The translations under genes were made by a program, and so were the position numbers. A stretch of 64,000 bases of DNA, taken from assembly GCF_026210795.1 (NCBI RefSeq), contig NC_089446.1, positions 1,054,001 to 1,118,000 of the forward strand, in the 5' to 3' direction. The notes beneath the pieces were generated by a model. The model was not told the origin of the DNA, did not search any database, and saw only the letters and a list, made by a program, of their open reading frames with translations. This document shows positions 2,565-48,905 of this stretch, piece after piece (the first letter of the stretch is position 1; each line of letters starts with the position of its first letter). This DNA is from Rhizophagus irregularis (Eukaryota > Glomeromycota > Glomeromycetes > Glomerales > Glomeraceae).

Positions 2565-2958
2565 TGTTGGTTAAGATGATGATTTTGTGATTAATTTTAA
2601 TTAACAGCGGAATATTTCAAATATATAGTTTTAATATTAAAATTTTAAAAGTCCGCGTTTTCGCGTTATCGTTACTCGTTAGAACCGGCAAAAATTTATG
2701 CACAGCGCGATCACTTGTTTTTCTGGACTTCAGCATCATTAAGATCTATCAAGTTATAAATGAATACGTTCTGAAATTTAAATTAGAATGTGATAAACTC
2801 GACTTTTAATTCAAAATTTAAGTTATAAATGACTAATTAAATAATACTACAAATATATTTAGAAAATACTGATTGAACAATTAATTAATACTTTATTTTA
2901 TAATTATAATTTACGATTGTTAAATAAAAGTACGAGAATTATAGATTTGATTATGAAT

Positions 2959-5172: not shown

Positions 5173-5618
5173 GCTTTATTTTGAAATTTTTATTTTTTTT
5201 TTTGTAGTCAAAATATTTCCAAAGATATGCAATAAATAAATAAATCTTATCTGCTATATCGATTACAAAAATATGTGGAACGTTCGTATTGCAATACATC
5301 AAACCATTGTATCCATATTAGAAATAGGAGTTTTGGCTATCCTCAACAAAAAGAATTTTATGAATGAAATTAGGAATTCAATGAATGAACTTAATTTTAT
5401 TGAACAATAAAGAATTCTTGGCGTAAATTTTTCATATTACCAAAAAAAGAAGTGATTAAATCGAAAATAAATGCATGGGAAAAAACACGTTTTTTACCTG
5501 TATTGGATAAAAATTCTGATAAATGATTTACATAATATATTTTGTTTATATAAATATGATCGGTAGTATATTTTTTCAATCCATTAATTACTTTACTGTA
5601 TATCGTTCATTTAACATA
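5173..5618. promoter_or_regulatory. Shared intergenic promoter between two divergent HSPA12-like genes
   Basis: The 446 bp between the divergent starts hold one copy of the conserved block (ATTCTTGGCGTAA at 5414-5426, CCAAAAAAAG ending near 5449), lying about 240 bp from one ATG and 205 bp from the other. No TATA box can be singled out in such AT-rich DNA. A bidirectional promoter is inferred. Confidence 0.45.
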
Positions 5619-7736
5619 ATGTCATGGACAACCGACATTCGCGTTGTGATTGGTTTAGGTACATTTATAATATTTGACATTTGAATTTTCTTTTTAACAC
5701 TGAATTAATTATATATTATATATTAAATCAGATTTTGGAACCACTTATTCGGTAAAATCATGTAGTTTCATGTTAAATTTAATATGATAAGAAATTAATT
5801 TTTTTTTTTATGGTAGGGATTTTCTTTATATCATTGCGAAGCTAAAGATATCGGAGACATCCGTGTAAATAGTGATTGGCCTGGAAGGGATGGGATATTG
5901 AAGACAAATACAATTCTTCAATACAAAACTGACGAATTTAAAGAGGTTGATTCATGGGGTTATAAGGCCTTGTACTCGAAACCTAGTAGGAGAAGCAGAG
6001 ATGATGAAGCAAGACCTATAGAATTATTTAAATTATATTTGGGTAATTGTTTGGAAAAGTATAGACCAAAGTTGCCTGAACCATTAACATATAAAAAAGC
6101 GATTACCGATTACCTTTATGAAATGGGAAAGGTAAATAATTAAAATATTAAATAAATAAATTATTTTTTTCACATTATAATAATCTTTACTTTTGATTGA
6201 TAAAGTTGGCTAAAGAAAATGTTCATAAATTTTGGCCGGGAATTGATTTCATGGAAAATGTACTCATAGTTCTTACTATACCAGCTGAATATTCAGAAAA
6301 TGATAAAGCTATAATGAGAGATTGTATATACAACGCTAAATTGATCAATAACAAATTTTCAGAAAAATTGCAGATTACAACTGAACGTATGTTTGATTAT
6401 TTTGATCATGTTTATTATTTTACTGCAATGATTGTGATGAAAAAATAAACAAATAATTTTTAAAATAAATATAGCGGAAGCTGCAGCAATCTACTGTCTG
6501 TATAGTAGCTTAAAAGAACACAAACTCACAAAATCCGGAAGTATGTTTCTATTTAAATATGCTTAACAAATTATGTTTTAATAATTGTATTAATTAAATA
6601 TTCTTTTGTCTAATCAAGCAAATTTCATGGTCGTTGACTGCGGCGGTGGCACAGTAGATTTAACAACACGTAAATTGTTAGAAGAAAACCAATTAGGTGA
6701 AGTCACTGAACGAGCAGGAGATTTTTGTGGGAGTACATTTATCGACAACAAATTTATTGAACTACTTAAGAGTGAAGTTGGAAAATCGGCTATGGATTCG
6801 TTAATTAATAAACATTATGGCCAATTTCAAAATTTAATTCAAGAATTTTGCCAAAATGTCAAGTTACCATTCACCGGAGATGATCCAGATTTTATTTATG
6901 AAATTGATTTAGAAGCTGTTGCTCCTGCATTATTAGATTACGTTACTGGTTCAGAGAAAGATTTGATGGAAGAAAAAGAATGGATGATTACGCTTAATTG
7001 TGATATTATTAAATCTATGTTTGATTCTATTATTGTTAGAATTTTCGAAATGATTCGTATTCAATTAAAAAATTCTGAAAAATGTTCTGCAATATTCTTA
7101 GTTGGTGGTTTTGGTCAATCAAAGTATTTGCAGAAAGAAATCGAGAAAGAATTTAGTCACTTAGTTGAAAACATCTCAATTCCGAATCAACCTATCGCAG
7201 CGGTAGTGCGTGGCGCAGCGATATACGGAAAAAGTTTATACGAGTCAAAGAATTTGAAGAACATGAATAACTCAAAATGTGTCATTGCAACTCGTGTATT
7301 AAAATATACCTTTGGGATCAAGGTATCTCCTTTATGGGAATATGGAGATCCATCAGATCGGCTCACAAGTGATGGGAGGATTCATAAATTTCGTTGTATT
7401 GCAGAACGCGAAACTAATGCTACAACTGATCAAGAATATATAGTTGAAGACTTGGTTCCTATTTCTCCGGATCAAACAGAAATGAGCTTTGATATATACT
7501 ATACAAAAGAACAGAGTGCTGTTTATTGTGATGAACCTGGTATGAAATTGCTTGGAGAATTACTTATCAGCCTCCCCGACGTGCATTTGGGAACTAATAG
7601 ACCTTGTACATTTTGCTTATCATTCGGCGATATGGAAATTAAAGCCAGGGCTTTTAATCAAATAAATGGGCAAAACTATCAAACCAAGTTCGAATTAAAT
7701 GAATTATCTGACTTAAATGAATTAAATGGTTTTTAG
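5619..7736 (+). CDS. HSPA12-like Hsp70-family ATPase, 6 exons, intact
   Basis: Exons 5619-5658, 5732-5751, 5817-6131, 6206-6386, 6475-6540 and 6619-7736 join into 579 codons with GT/AG introns. Landmarks: DFGTTYSGFS (phosphate loop 1, split over the 20-nt exon 2), a VLIVLTIPAEYSENDKA segment, a TEPEAAAIYC segment, MVVDCGGGTVDLTTRK (phosphate loop 2), and FLVGGFGQSKYLQKE (adenosine loop). The protein ends ELNELSDLNELNGF. The start is fixed by the shared MSWT-N/D-IRVVIGL first exon, also seen at 63594. It is the + strand member of the first convergent pair; the facing coiled-coil gene ends 174 bp downstream. It is the only chaperone member among the five pairs at 5.6-26.2 kb that is still intact. 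ATP binding is expected; the client is unknown. Confidence 0.92.
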
Positions 7737-16135: not shown

Positions 16136-18490
16136 TTATTCTACTCCTTCTTCGTCCGATTCCAATTCTAAATTTTTCTTATTTTCTTTGGGGATAACAT
16201 TACCAAGATACGATGTGAATTTCTTCCTTTTTGTAAATACTTGAGCATGAGTATATATTTTACGTTTCTTCACATCATCCAAATTTTGACCAATCATTGG
16301 AAAAAAGCAAACTTCCACTTCTAAGTTATCAATATCATCTTCATCCCAATTTCCTTCCATAATGCTTGGGTTAATATTAGAACCCATTTTGATCCATTTC
16401 ATTTGAGCACTAGGTTCTTGAACTTTTAAACGAAATTGAATCATTCTAATAAATTCTCGAATTAAATCTGGCGCCAATTTCTCAACATATTTTCTTTTGT
16501 TTTCATCTTTAATTATACGATATTTATTAATTTCTTTATTCAATTCAGCTTTATTAATGATAGTGTAACCATGTGATACATAGTTTTCACCCGACAAGAC
16601 ATCTGAAAATCCTCGATTACCAAGAGCGATATTAACTTCTTGTCGTATTTTTATTGAGGCTGCCTGAGTTACTGTGTCCGTTCCACTTCGAGTTTTAGAG
16701 AAATAAGCTAATTTATTTTCTAAATCTTTTGCCTTTGTTGCAATTTCTGCTTCTAAATGCATTGTCGATTCTTCCTTTGAATTTTGTTTGAAGTATTCTC
16801 TAATATCCTTTGTAATCTTTTTTATAACATGATGTTGTAAAACTGCTTTAATTAACGGCTTGTTAGGCTGTTTTGGTGTAATTTTAGTTTTAATATGATA
16901 CCTTTCCATAAGACCATTAACTGCATTGAAATCGATCTCACAATCTCCTTTTAATGTTGTGACGTAATTTATTAACTTATTTTGTAATTTTTCAATATCC
17001 TTTTTAAGTTGAACAGAATGATTCTTATCGTCATCGTCCATTCGATAATTTGTAATAGTACCCAGCTCGGACTGGTATTGAGATGCTTCTTTTTTAAGAT
17101 TTATATTATTTTCTATAAGTTCCTGTTTTTCTTCTTCACCTTTTTGCAATAAATTGTTAAGTTTATTTATCTCCTTAACATATTCTTCATTTTTTTTATG
17201 AATTTGCCTAATTTCTTCTAACTCGTTAGGTCTTTTTTGAAATTTACCGATTTCTCCATTATTAACTTTAATGTCAGTAGCTAATCGATCATACTTGGAT
17301 TTTTCCTTAAGTTTAACTTCGAATTGTTTGAGTTGAGTTTTGAGTCTATCATTCTCATTACGCATCGCTGAATAATTGTCTGGAATTTTGGAAGATGTAG
17401 ATATCTTATTTTTAAGTTTGTTGTTTTCTGCAACTGATTCCGCAAGTTGATTTGTGAGGACTTCTTTTTCAGAACTAAGTATTGAAAAACTTTTCTTATA
17501 TTCTCTTATCTGACCTTTGAGATTAGAGTTATCATTAGATAGATTAGTAGTTAGTTTATCATTTTTAAGTTTTTCATTTTCGAGGTGAAATTTGAGTTTA
17601 TCATGTTTATTGCACATAACTTCACAATCGGTTGTTACTTTTTTAAGCTTTGCACTTTCAGTACGAAGTGTTGTTGTTAAATTTTCGAGCTGAGCTTTGA
17701 GTTTAACATTCTCATTACGTATCGCTGAATAATTGTCTGGACTTTTAGATGTAGATATCTTATTTTTTTCATTTTTGAGGTGAATTTTGAGTTGATCGTG
17801 TTCACCGCACATAACTTCATAATCGGCTGTTACTTTTTTAAGCTTCGCACTTTCAGCATGAAGTGTTATTGTTAAATTTTCGAGCTGAGCTTTGAGTTTA
17901 TCATTCTCATTACGTATTGCTGAATAATTGTCTGGAATTTTGGAAGATATCTTGTCTTTAAGTATTTTATTTTCGGCACGAGTTCTTTCTAAATTTTCTT
18001 CTGTTTCTGCAAGCTTATATGTGAGTTTTTCTTTATCAGATTTAAGTGACGACACCAATGTTCTTAATTCTTTTGGCTTAACTTTGGGATCAGAGTTATC
18101 ATTGTATACCACTGAATGATTAGTTTGTTTATTATTTTTAAGTTTGAGGTGAGCTTCGAGTTTATCATTTTCTTTGCACATAGCTGCATGTTCCTTTTTA
18201 AGTTTTTCATTTTCAGTTGACAAACATTCGAGTCGAGTTTTGAGGTCATTATTTTCATTATTTATCTTTAAATAGTTGTTATTTTCATATTTAAACCCTT
18301 CGTATTCAGTACAGATCGCCTCCAAACGTTTAACCCGATCTTCACTTTCATCATGTTTCATTTTATAAGTATCTCTCTCTTTGGAACATTTATTTAGTTC
18401 ATTTGAAATTCTTTTGTTATCATCTTTAAGCTCAAAACATTCCTGTTCAAGTTCTTTGATTTCTTCAAGAGAATAATTACGGTCTTTCAT
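16136..18490 (-). CDS. Coiled-coil protein with conserved C-terminal module, 784 aa
   Basis: Single intronless frame starting MKDRNYSLEEIKELEQ. Residues about 5-505 are coiled coil, with two or three repeats of a block of roughly 70 residues around KLKKVTADYEVMCGEHDQ and DNYSAIRNENDKLKAQLE, indicating internal duplications. Residues about 510-765 are the conserved module also found at 7911 and 21153 (LINYVTTLKGDCEIDF, QEVNIALGNRGFSDVLS, INPSIMEGNWDEDDIDNLE), with an acidic end LELESDEEGVE. No localisation signal is seen. Its convergent HSPA12-like neighbour is a pseudogene, yet this gene stays open, which suggests it is useful without that neighbour. Function unknown. Confidence 0.85.
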   Translation of the reverse strand: MKDRNYSLEEIKELEQECFELKDDNKRISNELNKCSKERDTYKMKHDESEDRVKRLEAICTEYEGFKYENNNYLKINNENNDLKTRLECLSTENEKLKKEHAAMCKENDKLEAHLKLKNNKQTNHSVVYNDNSDPKVKPKELRTLVSSLKSDKEKLTYKLAETEENLERTRAENKILKDKISSKIPDNYSAIRNENDKLKAQLENLTITLHAESAKLKKVTADYEVMCGEHDQLKIHLKNEKNKISTSKSPDNYSAIRNENVKLKAQLENLTTTLRTESAKLKKVTTDCEVMCNKHDKLKFHLENEKLKNDKLTTNLSNDNSNLKGQIREYKKSFSILSSEKEVLTNQLAESVAENNKLKNKISTSSKIPDNYSAMRNENDRLKTQLKQFEVKLKEKSKYDRLATDIKVNNGEIGKFQKRPNELEEIRQIHKKNEEYVKEINKLNNLLQKGEEEKQELIENNINLKKEASQYQSELGTITNYRMDDDDKNHSVQLKKDIEKLQNKLINYVTTLKGDCEIDFNAVNGLMERYHIKTKITPKQPNKPLIKAVLQHHVIKKITKDIREYFKQNSKEESTMHLEAEIATKAKDLENKLAYFSKTRSGTDTVTQAASIKIRQEVNIALGNRGFSDVLSGENYVSHGYTIINKAELNKEINKYRIIKDENKRKYVEKLAPDLIREFIRMIQFRLKVQEPSAQMKWIKMGSNINPSIMEGNWDEDDIDNLEVEVCFFPMIGQNLDDVKKRKIYTHAQVFTKRKKFTSYLGNVIPKENKKNLELESDEEGVE

Positions 18491-24398: not shown

Positions 24399-26201
24399 TC
24401 ACAATATTTCATCATCGTCCGATTCCTGTTCAAAATTTCCTATAGTTTTTGGCGTCCGGATGCTACATCCTTATTAACATTACAGTAAATTTTTTCCTTC
24501 TAATGAATACCTGAGCATGAGTATATATTTTACGTTTCTCTACATCATTCAAATCCTGACCAATTATTGGAAAAGAACAAACCTCCACTTCTAAGTTATC
24601 ATGCTTGTTCTTTAAGATTTATGATTTTTTCTATAAGTTCTTGTTTTCTTTTTCTTTTCTTTGCAATAAATTATTAAGATTATTGATTTCCTCAATAAAT
24701 TCTTCATTTTTATAATTTTTATACTGAAATTGGCGAATTTCAGAATCCTTTATCTATGGATTATCTGATGCATTTTCATTATTTGCTATATTTGAGCTAA
24801 GATTTGTTCTAATTCATAAGATTTTTTTTGAAATTCGCTATTTTTAACTCTAATATCAGAAATTAATTGATCATACTTTTTGGATTTTTCTTTAAGTTCA
24901 TCTTCGAGTTGCTTGAGTTGATCATTGAGTTTATCATTTTCAACTAAATAATTGTTTGGACTTTTAGATGTAGATATCTTAAGCTTTTCGTTTTCAGAAA
25001 CTAATTCTGCAAGCTGATTTGTGAGGATTTCCTTTTCAGAACGAAGTATTGACAAATTAGAGTAATCATTATATACCGTTGAATGATTATTTTGTTTGCT
25101 ATTTTTATTTTTTAGTTTTTCATTTTCAAGGTGAATTTTGAGTTTATCATGTTCACCACACATAACTTCATAATCGTATGTTACTTTTTTAAGATTTTCA
25201 CTTTCAGTACGAAGTGTTGTTGATAAATTGGTTTGTGCTTTATTAAGTCTTTCATATTCGCTTGACAAACTTTTAAGCTGAGCTTTGAGATCACGAATTT
25301 CATTAGAATCACTTTTATTACCATTTCTAAGTTTTTTGTTGTCCGTACGAAATGATGAGAGTTGATCCTTGAGGTTATTATTTTCAGCTTCATAATCATT
25401 TTGTACTTTTTTAAGCTTTTCATTTTCACTTTCGAGCTGATCTTTAAGTTTACTAATTTCGTTAGAATTATTATCTCTAAGTGATGAGAGTTGATCATTG
25501 AGGGTGTTATTTTCATTGCGTATGGTTTCATAATCAATTTGTACCTCTTTAAGCCTTTTATTTTCAGCTGACAAACTTTTGAGCTGAGCTTTGAGGTCAC
25601 GAATTTCACTAGAATCATTTTTTTGACCATTTCTAAGTTTTTTGTTCTCCGTACGAAATGATGAGAGTTGATCCTTGAGGTTATTATTTTCAGCTACATA
25701 ATCATTTTGTACTTTTTTAAGCTTTTCATTTTCACTTTCGAGCTGATCTTTAAGTTTACTAATTTCGTTAGAATTATTATCTCTAAGTGATGAGAGTTGA
25801 TCATTGAGGGTATTATTTTCATTGCGTATAGTTTCATAATCAATTTGTACCTCTTTAAGCCTTTTATTTTCAGTTGACAAACTTTCGAGCTGTTCTTTGA
25901 GGTATCTAATTTCGTCAGAATTATTTTTTTGATTATCTATAAATCTTTCGAGTTGAGCTGTGAGGTTATTGTTTATTTCTAAATACTTGTTATGTTCGGT
26001 ACGGAGCGCCCTCAAACTTTCTTCAGATTGTTTAACCAGATCTTCCTTTTCATCAAGTAACACTCTGAAAGTATCTCTCTCTTGGGAACATTCATTTAGT
26101 CTGTCTTGGAGGTCAGAATTTTTCTGTTCAAGTTCTTGGATTTCATGAAAATAAAAAAGTTCATCCAAATCCGTTGCATCGTCATGATCATTAACCTTCA
26201 T
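24399..26201 (-). pseudogene. Coiled-coil gene with C-terminal module deleted (pair 5)
   Basis: An open frame of 471 codons (24786-26201) starts MKVNDHDDATDLDELFYFHE and is almost entirely coiled coil. It is nearly identical in DNA to the 5' part of the gene at 7911-10142. A 306-bp segment (102 codons, around STENKRLKEVQIDYE to NKKLRNG) is duplicated in tandem, where the 743-aa protein has one copy. Downstream the coding trace continues out of frame at 24399-24785: a coiled-coil piece joins directly to the last part of the module (KLEVEVCSFPIIGQDLND, KRKIYTHAQVF). About 250 residues of the conserved module are therefore missing. The 471-aa coil could still be made, but as a family member it is broken. 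Confidence 0.75.
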
Positions 26202-28988: not shown

Positions 28989-31802
28989 CACTGGTCAAAA
29001 TAGTCCAAATCGGCTAAAATTCAACCAGCCAATTTTAGGCTAATTTATGGTCTAATGCTGGTCAAACTTTAGCTGATTTTTTGGCTGCAGTTCGCTGCCA
29101 CTCGCCTAAAGTTCGGCTTGAAATTTTGGCCAAAATTCAGTTAACATTCGGAACAATTTCAGATAGCAAATTTTGGTGAATAGTTTTCCGAATGTTACTT
29201 AATTTATGTTGCAAATTTGTACTAAATTTATTTACTAATATTCAGCCACAACTCATTTTATTTAATATTCGCAATAAATCACAACTTTATTTATAAATGC
29301 ATATTACAAATAAGTATTACTAATCTACAATTCCACAATCACATAATTCATGTATTCGTATATACTTACGAATCTTGATCTTTTGGAAACCCACCAAAAC
29401 TATAAAAAAAAGAAAAGAACGGTTAGTAACTGTTCCATAATATTAAAAAAAAGCAAAAAAACCCAAGATTCTACTTACGAATCTTTGGTTTTTTTCTGTT
29501 TATCAGAACCCACCCGAGACACTAAACCTATAAAAAAGAAAAAAAAAGAGCAGTTATTAATAACTGTTCATAATAATATTAAAAAAAAATAAAAAATAAA
29601 CCAAGATTCGTAAGTACAAATCTTGGTTCCACTTTTCTAAAGATCCCGAAACCTACAAAAAGAAAAGAACGGTTATTAGTAAACTGTTCGTAGTAATAAA
29701 AAATAAAATAAAAAATAAAAAAAGAACCAAGATTCGTACTTACTTACGAATCTTAGTTTTCCGTTGTTCTTCGAAAGCCCACTGAATCTAAAAAAATAAA
29801 ATAAGAACGGTTTATCAGTAACCGTTCGTTAATATTATAAAAAAAAATAAAAATAAAACCAAGATTCATACTACGAATCTTGGTTTTTTCCATTCTTCAG
29901 AAGACACTGACCTAAAAAAAAGAAAAAGAACGGTTAGAAACCGTTCATAATAATAAACAAAAATAAAAAAATAAAGATTCATACCGAATCTTTAGTTTTT
30001 TCCGTTCCTTGGAAAGACAGAATCCACCCGAACCTATAAAAAAAAATCAAAAGAACAGTTAGTAACTGTTCTATAACATTAAAAAAAAGATTCGTAAGTA
30101 TATTACTTACGAATCTTTATCTTTGGGTTTTCGTTCGTCGGAAGCCTACCGCACCTAAAAAAATAAAGAAAAGAACGGTATTAGTAACCGTTCATTAATA
30201 AAATTAAAAAAAAAGAAAAATTATAAAGTAAAGATTCGTACTTACGAATCTTTATCTTTGGGTTTTCATTCGTCGGAAGCCCACCGCACCTAAAAAATAA
30301 AGAAAAAAACGGTTATTAGTAACCGTTCGTAATAAAGAAAAAACAAAAAAAAAATTATAAAGTAAAGATTCGTACTTACGAATCTTTATCTTTGGGTTTT
30401 CATTTTTCGGAAGCTCACCCGATCCTATAAAAAAGAAAGAATGGTTAGTAAACCATTCGTAATAATAATAAATAAATAAATAAATTAAAGATTCTTACGA
30501 ATCTTTGGGTTTTCGTTCTTCAGAAGTCCACCCGATCCTAAAAAAAAGAAAAGAACGGTTATTAGTAAACCGTTCATATATTAAAAAAAAACAAAAAAAT
30601 TAAACCAAGGTTCGTACTTACTTACGAATCTTGGTTTCTTGGTTTTCCGTTCTTCGAAGCCCACCAGATCCTAAAAATAGAAAAGAACGGTTATTAGTAA
30701 CCGTTCGTAATATTTTTTTAAAAAAATAAAAAAAAAATCCAAGATTCTTACGAATCTTTGGAATTTTCCCATTCTTCGGAACACGGAAGCCCACCCGAAC
30801 CTATAAAAAATAAAAGAACGGTTATTAGTAACTGTTTGTAACATTTTTTTTTAAAAAAAATAAAAAAAAATCCAAGATTCTTACGAATCTTGGAATTTTC
30901 CCGTTTTTTGGAACACGGAAGCACACCCGAACCTATAAAAAATAAAAGAACGGTTATTAGTAACCGTTCGTAATATTTTTTTTTAAAAAAAATAAAAAAA
31001 AATCCAAGATTCTTACGAATCTTGGAATTTTTCCGTTCTTCGGAACATCTGATCCTAAAAAAAGTAAAGAACGGTTATTAAAAACCGTTCATAATATTAA
31101 AAATAAACAAAAAAAAATAACCAAGTTTCGAACTTACAAAACTTGATTTTTCCATACTTCGGAAGCCTACCCGAACGGCCGAACCTAAAAAAAAAAGTAA
31201 AAAAAGAACGGTTAGTAACCGTTCATATTAAATTAAATTAAAAAAATAAAAAATAAATAAACCAAGTTTCGTACTTACGAAACTTGGTTTTTCCATACTT
31301 CGAAAGCCCACACGAATGGCCGAACCTAAAAAAAAAAGTAAAAAAAAGAACGGTTAGTAACCGTTCATATTAAAAAAATAAAATAAACTTCAAAGAATTC
31401 GTACTTACGAATCTTTGGAGTTTCTGTATTTTGAAGCCCACCCGAAAGCCGAACCTATAAAAAAAAAGTAAAAAAAGTGAAAGGGGGAAGGGAAGGAAGG
31501 AAAAGGGAAGGAAGGAAAAGGGGAAGAAGGGGAAACAGGGAAGGGGAACGAAGGAGAGGAAAGGGGAGGGGAAGAAAAAAATTATTAAAAGTTTAAAAAA
31601 GGATGTATAAGATGATCCTTTTTTAAACTTTTAATACGCGTAATGCATAATGCGTAACGTTTGATTAACAAAATTAATAAATCGACCATAAATCATATAT
31701 GTCGAAATTTAGCCGATTTTTAATAATTTACGAAATTTGGCCGAAATATGTGACAGATCAGCCGATTTGTCACATGACCGAAAGTTTTGATTTCGACCAG
31801 TG
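28989..31802 (-). mobile_element. CACTGGTC-ended non-autonomous transposon, copy A (2.8 kb)
   Basis: It starts CACTGGTCAAAATAGTCC and ends TTTCGACCAGTG, flanked by the 3-bp direct repeat TCA (28986-28988 and 31803-31805). CACTN termini with 3-bp duplications fit the CACTA (CMC) superfamily. The left 380 bp match the complemented right end of the element at 34181-37590. The right 230 bp match its left end. The two copies are therefore the same element in opposite orientation. The interior is a tandem array of about 16 units plus a purine-rich stretch at 31475-31575. No transposase is encoded. Confidence 0.85.
29350..31475 (-). repeat. Tandem micro-exon/mini-intron array, copy A (about 16 units)
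   Basis: Read on the - strand, each unit has a T-rich tract ending TTTTAG, then 39-48 nt starting GTTCGGGTG and ending in GATTC, then GTAAGTA or a variant. A GAACGGTT / ACTAAT / AACCGTTC stem-loop follows. These are the signals of a 3' splice site, exon, 5' splice site and branch point. Units around 30501-30540 (39 nt) and 30881-30940 (48 nt) keep one frame open across the inferred junctions. Period is 115-140 bp. No first exon with a start codon was identified, so expression is unproven. Confidence 0.6.
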
Positions 31803-34180
31803 TCAGGTGATAAGGGGGTGACAGGTTGGGTACCGCAGTTTTTGTAGTATGCCGATCATGGTGATCACATGTTGAACTATCATTGGATTGACTTATCTAG
31901 GTAGATCTTAGGCTGATGGATCGTTCGCAATGAGGTGGGTGTTCTCTGTTAGGGATCGTTTGAAATGAAGTGAGTATCTCTGTTGGAATTGCACGACACT
32001 AAAAAGTTCTCCTAGCGGCTGGACTGCATGACACTAAAAAGTTCCCTGAGGTCTTTGTGAAATAGGTTTGTTATTTATAGTATGTAGTCAAATAAAGGAA
32101 ATTGAATTTTGTGTATTTTTGATAGCGCTAATGATATTTAGCAATGGGATTCTTCGATCTTTAAATGTAGTGGGGGTCTCGCTGAGTATATATAGCATAG
32201 TCGATTCTACCGGGTTTAAGATATAATTTGGGGATAGCCATAGTTAGAGGATGTTGGGTTTATAATCTTAGCATTTCTTTTTATATATTTCTGGAAGATT
32301 ATTGTTCTTGTATTAGATTAGTTCTGCACTTTGTTGCAGTTCTTTTTTGAATACCTGGTATTCTCTAAAGTAACTTGTGACAAAAATTAATAAAATTCAA
32401 GCGCAGCTTTGTTAAACCGAAAGTGTGACTTATGATCTGTTTTGAAGATATCCGGGGTCCTGTTAATTCATACCTAAATCTTAAAATTGATGTTTTAGTA
32501 ACTCCTTTAAAATAAAAAGGTCATTTAATTAAATTGCATTGTAATAAAATTATTAAACCTAAAATTATTAGATTTAAATTACTAGTATTAGTTGTTTTAA
32601 ATATGTCCAAAGCTTTAACATATTCTTAAAATATATAAAATTTAAAATTAGTAGTTAAAATTAATATAAATAGTTAAAATTAAATTAATTAATAATTTTT
32701 AAATTATAATTTTAGCCAAAATTTTCTTAAATCTAGCCAAATTTATAATGCCAGCCCAAATTTTATTAAAACTAAAATTTTTAGATTATAAATATAAACA
32801 TATTTATATAATATAATTTATTATTTTAAATATAAAAAAATAATTTATTTAGCAATTTAATACTGAATTATACCATTATACGATTTAACACGTTGCGTAT
32901 TCTGCATTCCTGCATTAAATGCACAATGTGTAAAACATAATGCTCAAGCTTCTTTACACTTATAAAGATAACGTTGCAAATAATTAGCAGCATCATTATA
33001 CTTTTGTAATAATGCAGCCCACTTTTCTTCAAAAATAAACTCAACACAGCTATTACGTGCATGACAGAAAACTGTAAAAAATTCTTTCCATTTCTCTCTA
33101 CCATATTTACCAAGAAAATGTTTTTTCAAATTTTTTCAGATATGGAACAGGTAAAAATGATGCTTTGTTGTTGTCCAAGTACTGCTTACTGTTGCGACCA
33201 TCGCTGAGTCAGCATCTGTGTAAAATAACATATATAACTCATAACTGATTTGCATGAATTTAGCATTTTTTGCTTCTGCTAAAATAGACCTAATTTGCTA
33301 AAAATCAAATTATCACATTTTAAATCTATACTAATTTGCTAAAACTTAAAATATGAGTTATAGTAAAATTCTAAATAATATAAGTTTAAATTTGCTTAAT
33401 AAAATATAATTTTAGTTTATTAAAATTTTTTGTAAATTAGTAAATTTAATCGTCAATTTACTGAAATTAATAATTTTTTTTTTTATTATCAATAAAAAAA
33501 TAAATAATTAATATAAATTAAACTGTCAATTTTTATAATTTATAATTAAAAATATGTATGTAGATTATAGATAAAATAATAATTAATAAAATAATAAATT
33601 AAATATAAATAATTATTAAAAAATAAAATGTTGCACAGTTTTTGGCCTGTATTATACTTAATTTTAGCCAAAATATAACCTGAACTCTAAAACTAATATT
33701 TTTAAAAATATTATCTATAAAAATTAAAAAAAAAGGATAAGTTAAATTTAAAAAAAAGTATCAATTTGCTCAAATATAAAACATAACTTTGTAAAATCAA
33801 CACAATTTGCTAAAACTCATAATTATAACTATTAATTAATTTTCAATCAATTTACTCTATTTAAAATTATGAGTTAAATCTAATTTTGATTGAATTTGCT
33901 AAAACTCAAATGTGAGTTATATATGTGATGTCTGAGGTCCTATTACTATATATTTAACAGTTATATAAAAAAAACTTATCACAGAATTACATTTACTTTT
34001 TTTAATTTATAAAAAATTTTACCTTATAAATAAATTCAACCAGTTTTTTTATGTAATTTTTATCTTAGGCTTGTAGGTGATCTCTATTAGAAGTTAGCAG
34101 AATTCTATTTAACTCCTCATTCATCACGTCTAAAGTATGATAATAGTATTATTAGATTTATTTTAATGAGTTAATTTCAA
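31803..34180. other. Spacer between the two inverted CACTGGTC elements
   Basis: 2.4 kb. At 31803-32460 there is moderately complex non-coding DNA with a repeated GACACTAAAAAGTTC. At 32460-34180 the DNA is AT-rich, with the MULE relic at 32868-33231 and several AATTTGCTAAAA repeats near 33300-33910. No intact gene is seen. Confidence 0.6.
32868..33231 (-). pseudogene. MULE-type transposase fragment
   Basis: Read leftward, a near-open stretch gives FYTDADSAMVATVSSTW, one in-frame TGA, then LKKHFLGKYGREKWKEFF and ALLQKYNDAANYLQRYL, ending near FNAGMQNTQRVKSYN. The order T-D-x-D, then a basic W-rich segment and a terminal NAG-x(5)-RVxxYN segment matches the second half of a Mutator-like (FAR1/MULE) transposase domain. 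The flanks are AT-rich and non-coding, so this is an orphan piece. No terminal repeats were found around it. Confidence 0.7.
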
Positions 34181-37100
34181 CACTGGTCGAAATAAAAACT
34201 TTCGGTCATATGACAAATCGGCTGATCTGTCACACATTTCGGCCAAATTTCGGAAATTATTAAAAATCGGCCAAATTTTGACATATATGATTTATGGTCG
34301 ATTTATTGAATTATTTAATCAAACGTTACGCATTACGCATTACGCATATTAAAGTTTAAAAAAGGATCATCCTTTTTTAAACTTTTTTTAATTTTTTTCT
34401 TCCTCCCCTTTCCTTTCCTTCGTTCCCCTTCCCTGTTTCCCTTTCTTCCCCTTTCCCTTCCTTCGTTCTCCTTTCCCTTCCTTCCCTTTTTCTTCCTTCC
34501 CCTTTCCTCTTTCACTTTTTTTACTTTTTTTTTATAGGTTTGGCTTTCGGATGGGCTTCCGAGTACAGAAACTCCAAAAATTCGTAAATACGAATACTTT
34601 GGAGTTTATTTTATTTTTTTTTTAATATGAACGGTTACTAACCATTCTTTTTTCTTTCTTTTTTTTTAGGTTCGGCCGTTCAGGTGGGCTTCCGAAGTAC
34701 AAAAACTCCAAAGATTCGTAAATACAAATACTTTGGAGTTTATTTTATTTTTTTTTTAATATGAACGGTTACTAACCATTCTTTTTTCTTTCTTTTTTTT
34801 AGGTTCGGCGTTCGGGTGACTTCCGAAGAATGGAAAAAACCAAGTTTTGTAAGTTCAGAACTTGGTTTATTTTTTTTTAATATTATGAACGGTTATTAAC
34901 CGTTCTTTTTCTTTTATTTTTTATAGGTTCAGCGTCTCGGGTAGGGCTTCCGAGTTCCGAAGAATGAAAAAAACCAAGATTCGTAAGTATATACGAATCT
35001 TGATTTTAATTTTTTTTGTTTTTTTTTTAATTTTATTAATGAACGGTTACTAATAACCATTCCTTTTTTTATTTTTTAGGTTCGGGTGGGCTTCTGAAGA
35101 ACGAAAACCCAAAGATAAAGATTCATAAGTACAAATCTTTTCTTTATAATTTTTTTTTTTTGTTTTTCTTTATTACGAACGGTTACTAATAACCATTTTT
35201 TTCTTTATTTTTTAGGTTCGGTAAGCTTCCGAAAAATGAAAACCTAAAGGTAAAGATTCGTAAGTACGAATCTTTACTTTATAATTTTTTTTTGTTTTTT
35301 TTTATTATGAACGGTTACTAAAACCGTTTTTTCTTTATTTTTTAGGTTCGGGTGGGCTTCCGAAAAACGAAAACCTAAAGGTAAAGATTCGTAAGTACGA
35401 ATCTTTACTTTTTTTTCTTTTTTTTGTTTTTTTCTTTATTACGAACGGTTACTAATAACCATTCTTTTCTTTATTTTTTAGGTTCGGGTAGACTTCCAAA
35501 AAATGAAAACCCAAAGATAAAGATTCATAAGTACGAATCTTTACTTTTTTTTCTTTTTTTGTTTTTTTCTTTATTACGAACGGTTACTAATAACCGTTCT
35601 TTTCTTTATTTTTTAGGTTCGGGTGGACTTCCGAAAAACAAAAACCCAAAGGTAAAGATTCGTAAGTACGAATCTTTACTTTATAATTTTTTTTTTTGTT
35701 TTTCTTTATTATGAACGGTTACTAAAACCATTTTTTTCTTTATTTTTTAGGTTCAGGTGAGCTTCCAAAAAACGAAAACCCAAAGGTAAAGATTCGTAAG
35801 TACGAATCTTTACTTTTTTTTCTTTTTTTTTGTTTTTTTCTTTATTACGAACGGTTACTAATAACCGTTCTTTTCTTTATTTTTTAGGTTCGGGTAGGCT
35901 TCCAAAAAACGAAAACCCAAAGGTAAAGATTCGTAAGTACGAATCTTTACTTTATAATTTCTTTTTGTTTTTTCTTTATTACGAACGGTTACTAAAACCA
36001 TTTTTTTCTTTATTTTTTAGGTTCGGATGGGCTTCCGAAAAATGAAAACCCAAAGGTAAAGATTCGTAAGTATGAATCTTTACTTTTTTTTTGTTTTTTT
36101 TTGTTTTTTTCTTTATTACGAACGGTTACTAATAACCATTCTTTTCTTTATTTTTTTAGGTGTGGTGGGCTTCCAAAAAACGAAAACCCAAAGATAAAGA
36201 TTCGTAAGTACGAATCTTTACTTTATAATTTTTTTTTTGTTTTTTCTTTATTACAAACGGTTACTAATAACCGTTTTTTTCTTTATTTTTTTAGATTCGG
36301 GTGGGCTTCCAAAGAACGAAAATCCAAAGGTAAAGATTCGTAAGTACGAATCTTTACTTTATAATTTTTTTTTTAATTTTATTAATAAACGGTTACTAAT
36401 AACCATTCTTTTCTTTTTTTATAAGTTCGGGTGGACTTCCGAAGAACAAAAAAAGGAGAACCTTTAAGATTCTTAAGTAATATACTTACGAATCTTTTTT
36501 TTAATGTTATGGAACAGTTACTAACTGTTCCTTTGATTTTTTTTTATAGGTTTGGGTGGATTTCCGTCTTTCCAAGTTGAACGGAAAAAACTAAAGATTT
36601 AGTATGAATCTTTATTTTTTTATTTTTGTTTATTATTACAAATGGTTTCTAATAGTTCTTTTTCTTTTTTTTTAGGTCAGTGTCTTCCGAAGAATGGAAA
36701 AAACCAAGATTCGTAAGTACGAATCTTAGTTTTATTTTTATTTTTTTTTATAATATTAACGAACGGTTACTGATAACCGTTCTTATTTTATTTTTTTAGT
36801 TCAGTGGGCTTTCGAAGAACAACGGAAACCAAGATTCGTAAGTAAGTACGAATCTTGGTTCTTTTTTTATTTTTTATTTTTATTTTTTATTACTACGAAC
36901 GGTTTACTAATAACCGTTCTTTTCTTTTTGTAGGTTTCGGGATCTTTAGAAAAAGTGGAACCAAGATTCGTAAGTACGAATCTTGGTTTATTTTTTATTT
37001 TTTTTAATATTATTACGAACGGTTATTAATAACCGCTCTTTTTTTCTTTTTATAGGTTTGGCGTCTGATGGATTCCGATAAATCAGAAAAAACCAAAGAT

Positions 37101-37590
37101 TTGTGTAAGTTCTAAGGTTTTTTGCTTTTTTTTAATATTATGGAATGGTTACTAACCGTTCTTTTCTTTCTTTTATAGTTTTGGTGGGTTTCCAAAAGAT
37201 CAAGATTCGTAAGTATATACGAATACATGAATTATGTGATTGTGGAATTGTAGATTAGCAATACTTATTTGTAATATGCATTTATAAATAAAGTTGTGAT
37301 TTTATTGCAAATATCAAATAAAATGAGTTGTGGCTGAATATTAGTAAATAAATTTAGTACAAATTTGCAATATAAATTAAGTAACATTCGGAAAACTATT
37401 CACCAAAATTTGCTATCTGAAATTGTTCCGAATGTTAACTGAATTTTGGCCGAAATTTCAAGCCGAACTTTAGGCGAGTGGCAGCGAATTGCAGCCAAAA
37501 AATCTGCTAAAATTCGACCAGCATTAGACCATAAATCAGCCTAAAATCGGCTGGCTGAATTTTGGCCGATTTGGACTATTTTGACCAGTG
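34181..37590 (+). mobile_element. CACTGGTC-ended non-autonomous transposon, copy B (3.4 kb)
   Basis: It starts CACTGGTCGAAATAAAAAC and ends GGACTATTTTGACCAGTG, flanked by CAA on both sides (34178-34180 and 37591-37593). The outer parts match copy A in reverse. Internal layout: a terminal segment; a hairpin near 34350-34390 (AAAAAAGGATCATCCTTTTTT-like); a pyrimidine-rich stretch at 34395-34530; the tandem array at 34530-37215; and a 370-bp AT-rich end with AATAAA motifs near 37280. It encodes no transposase and is presumably mobilised in trans. Confidence 0.85.
34530..37215 (+). repeat. Tandem micro-exon/mini-intron array, copy B (about 20 units)
   Basis: Units recur every 130-137 bp in the best part (exon starts at 35345, 35482, 35617 and 35751). 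Each has a T-rich tract plus TTTTTTAG, a 45-nt segment starting GTTCGGGTGGGCTTCCG and ending AAAGATTC, then GTAAGTACGAATCTTT, a T-rich stretch, and a stem GAACGGTT/AACCGTTC around ACTAAT. Joining 45-nt segments keeps two frames open: a 15-residue repeat FGWASEKRKPKGKDS and, in the next frame, SGGLPKNENPKVKIR. Some units have 44, 46, 48 or 56 nt or a mutated GT (ATAAGTA at 35123-35130 and 35525-35532). No start codon exon was found. Whether it is spliced in vivo is unknown. Confidence 0.65.
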
Positions 37591-37784
37591 CAATGAGTTA
37601 TGTTTCATTTTTCTGTAATAACTGAATGTAAAGTTAAATGCGAAAACATTTTGTGATACAGTAAATTTTAAATAGAGAATGCCAATTTTAATATTTTTGT
37701 AAATAACTAGGACTCCAAACATTACATACACAACTCAGTGGCAACTTTTTCGCAAATTGACCTAAATTTCACAAAAAAAAAATC

Positions 37785-38991: not shown

Positions 38992-39409
38992 ATTACTACT
39001 ATACCATTGGAAGATTTATAACTGTATCTTAAAGCTAAAGAATTGTAGGATTATAATGGTCTTAAGTAAGTCTTAGTTTAATTTAAAGTATAAATGGTTA
39101 ATATAGAAGGGTATTTAGATGATTGTTATAATTACATTTGATAAAAGTCCTTCACTAACTAAAATATAAGTTAGGTAATATAGAATAATTTACAACACTG
39201 GTCAAAAACTACATCAGGAAATTTTATAGTGCGAAAAATTGCGTAAGTTTACGATTTTGTAAGTTTACGAAAGTTTATGGCATAATATTTCGAAAAATTT
39301 CAAAATATTACGTAAGTTTACAATTTCGTAAGATTTATGTGATATTACGGTTAAAATATTACGTAAGTTTTCAATATCGTAAGATTTACGCAATATTACG
39401 GTTAAAATA

Positions 39410-39885
39410 TTCTGCAAATTTACGAAACTGTAAACCTGCGTAATATTACAGTTGAAATATTTCGAAAATTTACGAAACTGTAAACCTGCGTAATATTACG
39501 GTTGAAATATTTCGAAAATTTACGAAACTGTAAACCTGCGTAATATTACGGTTGAAATATTTCGAAAATTTACGAAACTGTAAACCTGCGTAATATTACG
39601 GTTAAAATATTTCGAAAATTTACGAAACTGTAAACCTGCGTAATATTACGGTTGAAATATTTCGAAAATTTACGAAACTGTAAACCTGCGTAATATTACG
39701 GTTAAAATATTTCGAAAATTTACGAAACTGTAAACCTGCGTAATATTACGGTCAAAATATTCTGCAAATTTACGAAACTGTAAACCTGCGTAATATTACG
39801 GTTGAAATATTTCGAAAATTTACGAAACTGTAAACCTGCGTAATATTACGGTTGAAATATTTCGAAAATTTACGAGATTGTAAAC
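39410..39885. repeat. 50-bp tandem repeat, about 9 units
   Basis: Near-identical 50-bp units contain TAAACCTGCGTAATATTACG and AAATATTTCGAAAATTTACG. They form the subterminal region of the composite element. The right subterminal region (48430-48860) has related ACGAAATATTACG words. Such subterminal repeats commonly serve as transposase binding sites in CACTA-type elements. Confidence 0.8.
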
Positions 39886-41751: not shown

Positions 41752-44730
41752 CTAAAAAATATATTTATTTACGAAATATTCATTTTGTTTATCAAATCGG
41801 GGTACTATGTGAACGACACCATGTATAGACTCTATAGCTACAAAGTTATATAATTCTATCAATTTTAAGTGAGGACATCCATATAAATATGGGTTCCTTT
41901 TAGATTTAAAATCGTACCATTGAATTAATGCGAGATTTAGCGGTGGTCTGTTAATACTTCTGCTAACAATAAGGCCTATAAATAATAAATATTTATTAAT
42001 ACTTTATAATAAATTATTACATAAATTGGAAAAATACCTGTCCATAACAAAGCCCTTTGTCTGATATATAATCATTTCGATTCTTCAGAATCCATTGAAA
42101 TAGCTATGTCGCTAAACCATACTTTATTATGATACCTGTTTGCGGCACGCATTATGGCACCATTTTCCAGCGTTACCGATCCGTATATGTTTATTCGGGT
42201 TTCACCAATAATTGCGAACCCATCAAGTAAATCTAGATATGAATCCAGACAACTTATAAATCTAGCAAAACCGGTCTGCATTTTATTGTCTACGGAATCT
42301 TTTTTTTCATTAAAAAATGTATTTGCATCTTGTAAAGAGAAATCAAAGAGTCTTGCAGAAAATTTACAAGTGCGAGGTGTTTTTGCCGGATTCACTGAAT
42401 GTTGAGACATTCTAATAGATATTGCTTGACGTTTTATCTATTAATTTAATTTCCATCTTAAGTTATATAATAAATATATACAATAAATAAATTTCCAAAT
42501 ACTTACAGTTCGTAAAAGCTGAGGTTTGACATCTTTTTTATTGCTAATTCGGTAGGGTATTTTAACGAAATATTTGTGAGACTTTCGTAAGTTTCTGTGG
42601 TATAGCCATTTATTGCGCCATAAGATCGTATTGAGTCAATAATGCGATAAACCCATGAATGCAATTTAGGCAACTTCAAATTGGAAGGAGAAACAAATTT
42701 AAAAGCCTTGACAAACATCCGCGCCCATCTATGTATTGCATCCTAAAATTTAAATGTTAATTTAATTTATTTAATTTAAATTTTCGATTTTACTAAAATT
42801 TTAATACATACATTAAATTTCTCCAAGTCACTTTCACTAAATTCTTCATATCTACTTAAAATATACATTTCATTCCAATATTCGTACAATTTCACAAGAT
42901 CATCATTATTTACAAAATTATCTACTTCGTTATTATTTTCATCATATAAATTATCAATAACAAATATCATGACTTTCATCAAACTTCGATATTCATTAGC
43001 AGTTAATCTTGCAATTGACTGCAGTCCATTGGAAAAAATTTTAATGGCGGGAAAACGTGGAATTGCTGCTAGACGGCGATCTACTTCTTCAACTAATTTA
43101 TTACCATTAACACGTTGCAATTTTAAGATATCGCACGTGAAGATAATTTGATAACGAAATAAACCCAAATCTAAATGATGCATTCTGTCAGAACAGTAGC
43201 CAAGTAGATATTTATATTCTTCGATAATATAAATATTTATAATTAATATATATATATGTTATTATAATTATTTCTACTTTTGCATACTTACGGCAAATCC
43301 CAAAAAAAATTAGGTACAGATTCTATGCAAACAGATTTTTGTGTATCATTTTCAAAATATTTACGCATTTCATCATGAGTTCTTAGTATTACATCATTAA
43401 CCGATAAGTTTATATTTGCAAGATTGTCCCTTTTAATTAAACAGGAGTGACATGGAAGGCTTGAATTGGAGGATTTATAAACTAAACAAAAACTTGCGGC
43501 TTCTGGCCAATCTGCAATAATAGTTGAAACTCTAGGATAAAACCAGGTATTTTCATTATTTATAAAAAGGTCTATACCATCTTTTAATAAAATAATTGGT
43601 TCTAGTAAATGACGTAAAGATTTATGAAAGGTATCACGAACCAGATCTTTATTTGCAGCTTCTAAAATTGGTAAATATCCCAAAAGTTGCTTTGCATCCT
43701 GTTTATTACGACGCCATATTGGAATATTGCCTAATGAAATATATATTGGATGCAATTGACTTTTTCCTAATGTATCTGTAGTTGTTGCATCTGAATATAA
43801 AATAATTGATAATAATTTGGAACCAGTAGGTAAGGATTCTTGCGTAGTTTTCCACCATTTTCCAGTGTTTTGTTCACTGTAAATACTTTCTCTATTATAC
43901 TATAAAATAATATAAATAAATTAAAATAAATATTATTTAAATTATTGAATTAACTAATATTTACTATTTACCTCATAGTTTTCGTAAGATAGCGCAAAAT
44001 TTTGTGTTATGTCAGGAACAGTTAAGATATTTTTGATGCACTGTATTAAGTTTTCGATAATAAAGAAAATAATCTTTATCCTTATGTTTTGTTATAAGAA
44101 CTTTACTAAATTCTAAATTAGAAAACTTCATATTATTCATAAATGCTCGTCCCTGTTCAATATTTTTTGGTAATGGTGATTCTGTAAGATTTGAATGTTT
44201 ATTAAAAAAACGTATTATTTCATTACCACCTTTATTGTTTATTTTATATTTCGTTACTAATAACATTAGATCTTTATAAGCATCATTAGGAAATTCTGTG
44301 CAAGTTTTGGTATTGAGATTTTTGGGTTCTTCAAAAATTTCAGGCTCTTCAGATGAATCTAATATATTTTCAAAGTTACTATCTTAAGGCTCATCTCTGA
44401 TATTGCACTTCCAATACTGTCAAATGACATATTTTGTACATTATTATCATCATCCACCTAAAATTATAAACCAAAATGAGTTAGTATAATTTGAGCTTTT
44501 TCTTTAAAAAGAATAATCTGGAATAACATAATTACCTCAACTTTATCATTTTCATATTCACTACTTAGATTACTTCTTGTATCCATTTCACTGCTATATT
44601 TTTCACTATCATTATTATCATCATCATCTTCTACTTCTACTTCTACATTTTTTAAGCATTTTTGGGCGTGTTGAGTATATGCAAAGCGTTGACTGAATAT
44701 TCGCATACAAAGGGGGCATTTGAAACTCAT
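41752..44730 (-). pseudogene. Plavaka-type (CACTA/CMC) transposase gene, frameshifted
   Basis: A multi-exon gene. Exon 1 (from 44730) encodes a C2HC zinc finger CPLCMRIFSQ...HAQKC and an acidic stretch. Next comes a region with KYKINNKGGNEIIRFFNKH and SPLPKNIEQGRAFMNNM. The RNase H-like core then runs SDATTTDTLGKSQLHPIYI, SLGNIPIWRR, ADWPEAASFCLVYKS and LPCHSCLIKRD (43288-43900). It continues with MHHLDLGLFRYQI (43183), KLHSWVYRIIDSIRSYGAIN and GYTTETYESL (42650), and a last part ending near FVNKYIF at 41754. This order is that of Plavaka transposases. Frameshifts near 44385, 44040, 42075 and 41945 break the frame, so the copy is defective. It is divergent from the gene at 45832. Confidence 0.85.
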
Positions 44731-45831: not shown

Positions 45832-47261
45832 ATGGCTACAAAGCGTGGGAAACGAAGAATTGACGATAATGAAAGATTTTCAAAACGTAGTACTGAGGGT
45901 AGCGAAGCTGAGAAGCGAGTGAGAATATCCAACGATAGTGTTGATGGTATATATGACATAATATGTATCATATTCTTTATAAAAGAAATTATATAATATA
46001 TAGTTAAATTATATTTTATTGTTAAAGTTAATAAAAAAACAATAGAAAAACTATTAAGAACCAATTCGCAGATAATTTCTAAGCTTGAAGTTCTTATCAC
46101 CGGACAAAAAAATCTCGAAACCCGTCTCTCGAGCATAGAAAAAAAGCTCAACGATAATAACAAAAATAATAATAATACAATAGATCCGGAGTATGTAAAG
46201 GTAATAAAGATGAATATTATTTAATGTAAACCTGAAATGCTAACCTCGTTTGATTAGGAGCTCGTTAAGAAGGTGTCGAAAATTTTATTTGAAAATTTTG
46301 TTTATCCTTCGCAAGACGCAATCTAAACTCGCTACCGAAAAATATTTAAAAGACGAAAATCCGGAATTTATGCGCCAGTTCAAAAAAAATCAATGGATTA
46401 TTTTTTTCGAAAAAAAAATTACCCCGACTGTAAGTTAAAGCAATTATGAATTTTATTAAATTTCATACTAACATTTTTTTTTAATAGTTAGTACAACAAC
46501 GTAGAAGCATACGAGGGACGTTCACGTCTAGAGTTAAAGACGTTATGTATTCTGTTTTCGAAGCGACTGGGCATAAATTACCGTCTATTAACACTCAGGC
46601 TAGTCCGTCAAAGATTCAGGAATGGAAGAGTAAGGCGGAGGTGAAAAGATGTTACAACAACCTATTTAAAAAGGTTAAAGATGGGCAACCTACGACATAT
46701 ATGTCGCTGATAATTGATAAGTTGCGAAAAGAAAATAAAAATCCTCAAAAACACAAATAGCGTATGCGATTAGCATATGTGAAACGTACTTAAATCCTAA
46801 TAATCAAAACATTCAAATGAGCGAAAGTATAATGAAGTCGAAGATAATCAACAACTTAGTAAGTTTTTAATTTACAATTTGCAAAATGTGAATTATTTGA
46901 ATTACAGTTTATTTATTTATTTATTGATTTTTAGCAAAAGTTGGAAAATAGGGATAAATTTACACATTCGGACGATGATTCTCATGATGGTAATGATGTA
47001 GACGATGGTGGTGATAGAGCAGCTGACGATAGAGCAGGTGCGGCTGATAATGGTGTGACTAACGATGGTAGGCCTAACGATGGTGCGGCTAACGATGATG
47101 CGGCCAACGATGGTGCGGCCAACGATGGTGCGGCCAACGATGGTGCGGCCAATGATGGCATAGCTGACGATGATATACTTTCTATTGACTCTTATAACAC
47201 GGAGGAGGAAGGTCGGTATGTAAATAGTTTATTAGAGAATTATGGGTTGCATAAAAAATAA
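45832..47261 (+). pseudogene. Transposon partner gene with coiled coil and acidic repeat, frameshifted
   Basis: Exon 1 (45832-45946) begins MATKRGKRRIDDNERFSKRS, a basic nuclear-type start. The next exon has a short coiled coil, TIEKLLRTNSQIISKLEVL. Later exons give ELVKKVSKILFENFVYPSQ, QRRSIRGTFTSRVKDVMYS and HKLPSINTQASPSKIQEWK. The last exon (46935-47261) is very acidic, with tandem 5-residue repeats NDGAA and the end NSLLENYGLHKK. Frame changes are needed near 46320 and 46750, so this copy is broken. It is divergent from the Plavaka-type transposase and inside the same inverted repeats, so it is likely the element's second protein. Its biochemical role is unknown. Confidence 0.65.
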
Positions 47262-48429: not shown

Positions 48430-48905
48430 ATTATTTATCGAAATATTTTGAAATATTACGAAATATTAAGTTGTGTAAAATCACAGAATATTACGAATCG
48501 TCAAATTATGGAACATTACGCATCATAGAATTTCGAAATATTTTAAAAAGTTGCGAAGTATTACGCAGTAAAATTACGGAATATTACGAATCGTAAAATT
48601 ACGAAGCCTTGCATACAGTAATATTTCGAAATATTTTAAAAAGTTACAAAATATTACGCTTACGCAAACTTGCGGCGGGTCTGAAAACTTACGAAATATT
48701 ATGTAAAATTACGAAATATTGCGAACCGCAAAATTACGGAATATTACAAATCGTAAAATTACGAAGCTTTGCATATCGTAATATTTCGAAATATTTTAAA
48801 AAGTTACAAAATATTACGCTTACGCAAACTTGCGGCGGGTCTGGAAGCTTACGAAATATTATGATGTGTAAACTTGCGCAACTTTTCGCACTATATAATT
48901 TCCTG
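48430..48905. repeat. Right subterminal repeats of the composite element
   Basis: Many TTACGAAATATTACG-type words, plus two copies of a segment of about 90 bp with TTACGCAAACTTGCGGCGGG (near 48660 and 48820). The last 45 bp mirror the left terminal repeat at 39196. Confidence 0.7.

Follow-up and report, generated by a model that had tools for sequence, protein, structure and literature searches.

A long run of splice-like signals inside a transposon raises the question of whether one is looking at a gene, at introns that have multiplied in place, or at a repeat that resembles either. Such a run lies in the 64,000-nt window analysed here (Rhizophagus irregularis, NCBI RefSeq assembly GCF_026210795.1, contig NC_089446.1, positions 1,054,001 to 1,118,000 of the forward strand), within an element that we call W2. 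An earlier note on this DNA had offered two readings of 34530-37215, a micro-exon gene that keeps its reading frame, or an exon-intron module amplified as a minisatellite in a CACTGGTC element. Here, we find that W2 is a bounded, non-autonomous DNA transposon with EnSpm/CACTA-type ends, one of a family in which three classes of unit share a single layout, and its sequence suggests that the element is probably transcribed in the sense direction and at least partly spliced into a non-coding RNA.

Exon-intron-like units in a mobile element

The array occupies 34538..37208 on the plus strand and consists of 21 exon-like segments (the first at 34538-34583, the last at 37179-37208) separated by 20 intron-like segments of 74-97 nt (median 87.5), in agreement with the roughly 20 tandem, directional units first described. 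In each unit a T-tract ending in AG is followed by a segment of 30-56 nt, a mostly GTAAG-type donor and a branch-point motif, which lies some 28 nt ahead of the following AG. A representative unit has its exon-like segment at 36676..36712 (plus strand), the donor GTAAGTAC at 36713 within a hairpin, a branch-point hairpin downstream at 36762-36781 and the following acceptor AG at 36798-36799. The claim that splice-type motifs follow one another in order on the plus strand is borne out by counts across 34530-37215, where GTAAGTA occurs 13 times, TTTTTTAG 14 times and ACTAA[CT] 13 times, compared with one, none and none on the complement. GT stands at the hairpin position in 17 of the 21 donors; it is gone from three others (two reading ATAAG, one TTAAG), and the fourth, AGTATG, has a GT one base later.

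The dimensions originally given for the units describe part of the array. A period of 130-137 bp holds for 12 of 20 units, within an overall range of 122-153 bp, and a segment of exactly 45 nt is found in 8 of 21, all of them in a stretch at 35080..36339 (plus strand) where nearly identical units with exons of 44-45 nt have expanded locally. Tandem Repeats Finder (TRF) reports a period of 135 with 10.8 copies. The number of tandem units also differs between elements, from roughly 8 to 25 (8 to 20 were parsed in 16 elements), as is typical of a minisatellite borne by a transposon. Inverted repeats at the donor and the branch point, which are an addition to the earlier note, were counted in the window on both strands with at most three mismatches, W1 (a second element, described below) and W2 both contributing. 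The donor palindrome AAGATTCGTAAGTACGAATCTT (AAGATTCGTA-AG-TACGAATCTT) gave 31 matches against 0.00 expected and the branch-point palindrome AACGGTTA-CTAA-TAACCGTT gave 33 against 0.04, and on these figures an origin of the array by chance is excluded.

W1, likewise new here, lies at 28989..31802 on the minus strand, measures 2,814 bp, and carries its own exon-mini-intron array at 29370..31454 (minus). Its units and those of W2 define what we call class A. Two further classes, scarcely similar in sequence to class A or to each other, have the same layout at loci elsewhere in the genome, which carry L numbers. Class B (L001-L010 and L030), whose exons resemble GAAATCGGCTCCAAATTGGATACCGGAATCCC and whose donors are GTAAAG or GTAAGT, looks uniform: three copies are 98% identical along some 0.5 kb at the left end. 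Class C (L027 and L038-L062) has acceptors TTTTGTAG, donors GTAAGT, GTGAGT or GTAGGT, and a hairpin directly after the donor; a genome search with the class C part of L027 returned at least 99 matches (among 40 scored of 430 candidates). L027 is a single element with units of both class A and class C. Blastn between the classes finds only short matches of 38-82 bases at 70-82%, so the classes are either very old relatives or convergent. Family-wide, a module comprises a U-tract/AG acceptor, a segment of about 25-56 nt, usually a GTRAG-type donor, and a branch-point motif, with hairpins at both donor and branch point. Two loci with family-like left ends, L026 and L028, were considered as carriers and rejected, being without a class A or B array: L026 has, by eye, one or two class C-like remnants, and L028 (1-1908) has, downstream of that end, an 11-copy 172-bp tandem repeat unlike the exon-intron units.

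The limits of the carrier are well marked. W2 spans 34181..37590 (plus strand, 3,410 bp), has the ends CACTGGTC...GACCAGTG, and is flanked by the target-site duplication (TSD) CAA at 34178..34180 and 37591..37593; W1 has the same types of end and the 3-bp duplication TGA. From left to right, W2 contains a terminal and subterminal region with TTTCGGCC-type repeats (34181..34330), a long inverted repeat AAGTTTAAAAAAGGAT/ATCCTTTTTTAAACTT (34352..34384), both taken from direct reading, a C/T-rich tract ahead of unit 1 (34399..34515), which may be promoter-like by analogy with fungal genes, the array itself, and a stretch with the final donor and right end (37209..37590) in which AATAAA lies at 37287-37292. 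Across the 146,748,485 bases and 32 contigs of the genome, the left-end pattern was found at 65 places and the right-end pattern at 97; a right end on the same strand follows within 10 kb in 42 of the 65, and within 4.5 kb in 39 of these.

The ends are terminal inverted repeats (TIRs) of the form CAC..GTG, which together with 3-bp duplications are the features by which fungal elements are filed as EnSpm in the part of PMC12730594 drawn on here. Matching TSDs flank 13 of the 16 elements with class A units, namely 11 of 12 in a first set (L018 being the failure) together with L031 and L027; L024 and L025 do not match. Class B elements have a composite left end (L021-L023; L001, L003, L008 and L009), in which a tandem repeat of 0.87-1.15 kb precedes an inner copy of CACTGGTC, and a right end with a tandem repeat rich in AATAAA. 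When ten of them were first checked with the inner CACTGGTC as left end, two TSDs matched; for the three whose true ends, 0.87-1.15 kb further out, were then taken, all three match.

By eye, no transposase was recognised outside nested insertions in the interiors of ten elements (W1, W2, L001, L003, L008, L009, L017, L024, L025 and L027), nor in open reading frame (ORF) scans of L024-L031, no domain search having been made in either case. Given the CAC..GTG ends, the 3-bp duplications and the lack of a visible transposase, the carrier is classed as non-autonomous and, by its ends, EnSpm/CACTA-type. The genome holds 123 Plavaka matches, and three loci cut from these were without a CACTGGTC end. 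L024 and L025 were entertained as autonomous partners and rejected, as they are class A elements made longer by other transposons nested inside them. The nested insertion in L024 (about 1470-5930, some 4.5 kb) has GGGACAGATC ends, adjoins TTAA, sits inside the class A array, and contains several ORFs together with its own internal repeat.

Likeness to host introns, conservation and hairpins

As a reference we used 19 host introns from three actin-like loci of the same genome, bounded by eye with one ambiguous place omitted. These have a median length of 81 nt, donors that are mostly GTAAG-, GTGAG- or GTATG-like, and acceptors TAG or CAG. The intron sets of classes A, B and C (173, 72 and 189 distinct segments) were picked by patterns requiring a donor and an acceptor, so that their splice-site make-up is not independent evidence; their median lengths, which are independent merely within the limits of those patterns, are 86, 93 and 81 nt. 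The frequency of the branch-point motif is independent of the selection. YTAAY occurs 8-48 nt before the AG in 163 of 173 class A, 71 of 72 class B and 152 of 189 class C segments (shuffle means 69, 35 and 77), and in 12 of the 19 host introns as against 8 in shuffles. Donor, branch point and acceptor follow one another in order and with host-like spacing, as they would in tandem spliceosomal introns.

A chain finder built on host-derived splice matrices was run on 13 of 31 sequences with 20 dinucleotide shuffles each, the scores for L038, L039 and L042 including flanking DNA. The sense strand scored above the antisense in all 13 (127 vs 8 for W2, 187 vs 17 for L027), and in 10 of the 13 the real sequence exceeded the best of its 20 shuffles (187 vs 84 for L027).

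Conservation at the splice sites themselves was considered in class C. Ten chain-parsed L027 units were compared with 25 other loci at 76-89% identity, setting aside alignments above 92% identity or overlapping earlier ones by more than 30%, as well as cells with gaps nearby. The comparison did not include another two or three class C units that L027 contains, among them one whose acceptor is lost. The donor G was kept in 90.3% of cases, the donor T in 98.8%, the acceptor A in 98.3% and the acceptor G in 90.5%, compared with 77.8% for G, 92.1% for T and 84.2% for A at intron positions outside the splice sites. Among 159 clean cells the donor hexamers were GTAAGT (83), GTGAGT (38), ATAAGT (10), ATGAGT (6) and rarer others. 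This is the pattern that selection for splicing followed by neutral decay would leave, in a test that is not clean and whose cells are not independent.

The hairpin at the class A donor spans the exon/intron border, with one arm in the exon and the other in the intron, and its arms covary: across 195 distinct of 249 units, taken with no filter, with G-T counted as a pair and with an identical search for own and swapped partners, the best stem averages 11.08 bp with a unit's own partner and 8.37 bp when arms are swapped, the maximum of 100 swap trials being 8.73. An earlier version of this arm-swap test, which also counted G-T and gave 12.41 vs 7.80 out of 14 positions (195 of 249 units, with 76 distinct pairs of arms), was discarded as inflated, because units and loop centres had been chosen by their own pairing. 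Covariation is weak in the class C donor-side hairpin (8.05 vs 7.48) and in the class A branch-point hairpin (5.76 vs 5.06). With up to 25 segments sampled per class, the intron-like segments fold better than mononucleotide shuffles (mean z of -1.8, -5.5 and -3.0 for A, B and C, compared with 0.00 for host introns), and three class A units gave folding z values of -3.0, -3.6 and -5.4 against dinucleotide shuffles.

Covariation of this kind can arise from selection on the RNA or from correction of palindromes by template switching. At 29603-29624 (minus strand) of W1, the donor hairpin loop is inverted and reads GTACTTAC in place of GTAAGTAC, which removes the donor; the same inverted loop is present in L011, L014 and L017 and not in L016. 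It is likely to be a trace of template switching at the palindrome, and on that account the process would have acted at least once.

What the array may be

The reading we favour is that the array forms a transcribed, spliceable and non-coding unit, or did so until recently, and we would give this about an even chance of being correct. We favour it because the signals are ordered, lie on one strand, have host spacing and are conserved across deep divergence, and because a C/T-rich tract precedes the array and AATAAA follows it. Transcription would run from left to right, possibly from near the C/T-rich tract, and would end at the AATAAA signals near the right end. The host spliceosome would then remove many of the mini-introns to leave a short non-coding RNA of joined micro-exons, and the hairpins may shorten or gate the distance from donor to branch point. 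By being spliceable, a mostly U-rich insertion full of hairpins could look like an ordinary gene, or could have most of its sequence taken out of a read-through transcript, although any such gain for the element is speculative.

The second of the two readings in the earlier note, the module amplified as a minisatellite, is well supported by the TIRs, the 3-bp TSDs and the dozens of copies, and further by the three classes sharing one layout, the host-like intron length, the placement of the branch point and the conservation of splice bases. Taken a step further, the element would be a mobile one with a multi-intron non-coding gene as its cargo, whose self-expanding splicing modules strip most of their own sequence from transcripts; it would be transcribed yet harmless, would escape RNA-based silencing, and might supply host genes with ready introns or cassette exons. 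That fuller picture strikes us as tentative and, on balance, improbable.

Several observations count against a transcribed and spliced array. One concerns the class A donors. Three class A units were folded as RNA, and the predictions place the GU of the donor within a stem that reaches 15 bp at most. Such pairing should hinder U1, and the paired donor, as modelled, is the strongest argument against efficient class A splicing. The donor-less unit with the inverted loop persists, at 6 of 173 distinct class A introns, several class B units are without a usable donor, and L027 itself holds a class C unit whose acceptor reads GTAAG. In the chain analysis, L008 and L010 (two of the three class B sequences tested) and the class C sequence L042 did not exceed the best of 20 shuffles, and the number of exons in real chains is generally no higher than in shuffles (16 in W2, compared with a mean of 14.4), the chains being just better-scoring. 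In several W2 units the finder preferred a donor GGTAAAG, cut after its first G and about 10 nt before the hairpin donor, so the W2 exon ends are uncertain. The excess conservation of the class C donor GT over other intron GT is modest (137/154 vs 629/767, p=0.034, with non-independent cells). For class A, where the donor G sits in a CpG, 17 donor-killing mutations stand against 29 mirror mutations (p=0.10) in the exactly context-matched pair; a control pair gives 34 vs 36 and the pooled comparison (17/116) gives p=0.0097, but given the matched result we regard selection on the class A donors as suggestive. Finally, splicing of the array is predicted from sequence, and its first exon and promoter are putative.

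Much of this would be expected if the array were an unspliced minisatellite rich in palindromes, carried by a non-autonomous transposon and maintained through slippage and through template-switch repair of imperfect palindromes, with its splice-like motifs supplied by hairpin loops and T-tracts or left as relics of an older spliced ancestor. On direct reading all three classes are rich in inverted repeats, the intron-like segments fold better than shuffles, class A donors are buried in a stem, and a loop inversion kills a donor; the spread of class B despite its lost donors and the non-significant matched CpG test fit as well. Palindromes are strand-symmetric, yet the W2 motifs lie nearly all on one strand and in splicing order, and the class C donor GT is conserved although it lies before the stem. 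The branch motifs, above shuffles in all three classes, and the match of intron lengths to the host also count against it. We hold a hairpin array without splicing to be a serious possibility, clearly less probable than the transcribed, spliceable unit.

The array might instead act from within host genes, as a mobile cassette-exon/intron module whose micro-exons host mRNAs would include or skip, in the manner of introners. In W2 the first array signal is an acceptor, 357 nt in from the left end, and the last is a donor, about 380 nt in from the right end, as such a module would need, and the part of PMC9860276 used here records DNA transposons with TIRs and TSDs as a source of introners. The element ends are not themselves splice sites, unlike the examples in that part of the source, and host reading frames would be shifted by micro-exons whose lengths leave every remainder on division by three; we consider this quite unlikely, with odds raised slightly by the stop-poor exons noted below.

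The protein-coding micro-exon gene of the earlier note fares worst. Lengths divisible by three were said to predominate, which is true of W2 (12 of 21) and not of the family, where remainders 0/1/2 are found in 78/52/72 of 202 distinct class A exons, 15/6/10 of 31 in class B and 56/42/29 of 127 in class C; remainder 0 is the commonest in each (chi-square p of 0.06, 0.14 and 0.013, with related exons treated as independent), but in each class most exon lengths are not divisible by three. The open frame across joins is not there either, as the 21 joined W2 segments carry 11, 11 and 7 stops in the three frames. Compared with base-permuted exons, the joins are more open in 13 of the 16 elements tested (p<=0.05). 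Against random ordering of the same exons, however, the actual order gave no more open a join at p<0.05 in any of the 16 (p 0.10-0.95). L011 yields a stop-free join of 247 codons, which we rejected as an ORF since random order does equally well (p=0.17) and the parser had set wrong limits for two of the exons in it. Class B exons are almost free of stops (6 vs 38.6 expected from dinucleotide shuffles in sense, 17 vs 42.4 in antisense, in 31 closely related exons), whereas in class A the depletion is stronger in antisense (121 vs 263 expected) than in sense (234 vs 285) and in class C it is slight (107 vs 121). The lead of remainder 0 and the stop-poor class B exons raise the odds of a coding gene slightly; we still hold it to be very improbable and a protein from the array unlikely.

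Neighbouring repeats, wider meaning and known systems

A larger stretch of the window shares some features with the family. Between 39196 and 57427 lie 18,232 bp bounded by 16-bp inverted repeats CACTGGTCAAAAACTA and a 3-bp duplication CAA, with a Plavaka transposase match at 43297-43893 (minus) and ORFs at 50.0-57.0 kb that look, to us, LINE-like. With its matching ends and Plavaka match this 18.2-kb stretch was a candidate autonomous partner, which we do not claim because it may be a nest of insertions; it is possibly one related element with nested insertions. A tandem array at 39342-39885 (50-bp period) lies just inside the CACTGGTC end at 39196, and another lies at 48438-48863 (25/93/160-bp periods). 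A 15-bp repeat, ATGGTGCGGCCAACG, at 47037-47172 is GC-rich for the region. Elsewhere in the window, tandem repeats at 17570-17941 (195 bp) and 25243-25932 (306 bp) have periods divisible by three and 90-93% matches, and fall in long minus-strand ORFs at 16136-18490 and 24786-26201, respectively.

If the W2 array is spliced, then a transposon is multiplying introns inside itself rather than adding one with each insertion, and its many units would offer a replicated system in which to consider the origin of introns, the effect of donor hairpins on splicing, and splicing as a possible shield from silencing. Young genomic regions of this fungus are reported, in the portion of PMC10234402 cited here, to make abundant small RNAs. 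If it is not spliced, strand-specific mimicry of splice signals has been kept across three diverged repeat classes, and this stands as a warning for gene annotation in this genome, many of whose repeats are reported as unclassified in the portion of PMC11075540 to which we refer.

Going by the parts of both sources used here, it is already established that transposons can contain internal tandem repeats (PMC9659126) and that they can turn into introns (PMC9860276). Among the papers listed from the open-licence literature searched, titles and abstract openings name no element with an exon-intron repeat unit. Closest by its ends are the fungal EnSpm/CACTA (CMC/CMCT) transposons, which, as described in the same part of PMC12730594, share the CAC..GTG termini and 3-bp TSDs; the present family also has subterminal repeats and, unlike them, has no transposase seen inside, its body being an exon-mini-intron array. 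Introners are likewise mobile DNA carrying splice sites, partly with TIRs and TSDs. In the sections of PMC9860276 that we cite they bring one intron per insertion site, and the examples there borrow one splice site from the target duplication, whereas here many introns and micro-exons lie within one element and away from its ends (357 and about 380 nt inside in W2); the main text of that paper contains neither the word Rhizophagus nor Glomero. An expandable internal array is shared with the central repeats of DINE elements, the miniature inverted-repeat transposable element (MITE) miDNA4 and the CACTA-like Jozin, for which the part of PMC9659126 drawn on describes no repeat unit with splice-site architecture such as that seen here.

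Two further comparisons concern the exons and introns themselves. The micro-exon genes of schistosomes also have many very short exons split by introns. Schistosome micro-exons are symmetric and coding, unlike those of the array, which are not consistently symmetric and have no conserved frame. The stwintrons of the Hypoxylaceae, as presented in the parts of PMC12403724 and PMC8469720 used here, are again multiplying fungal intron units, some with internal symmetry; they are introns nested within introns, whereas the units described here are tandem exon-intron modules carried by a transposon.

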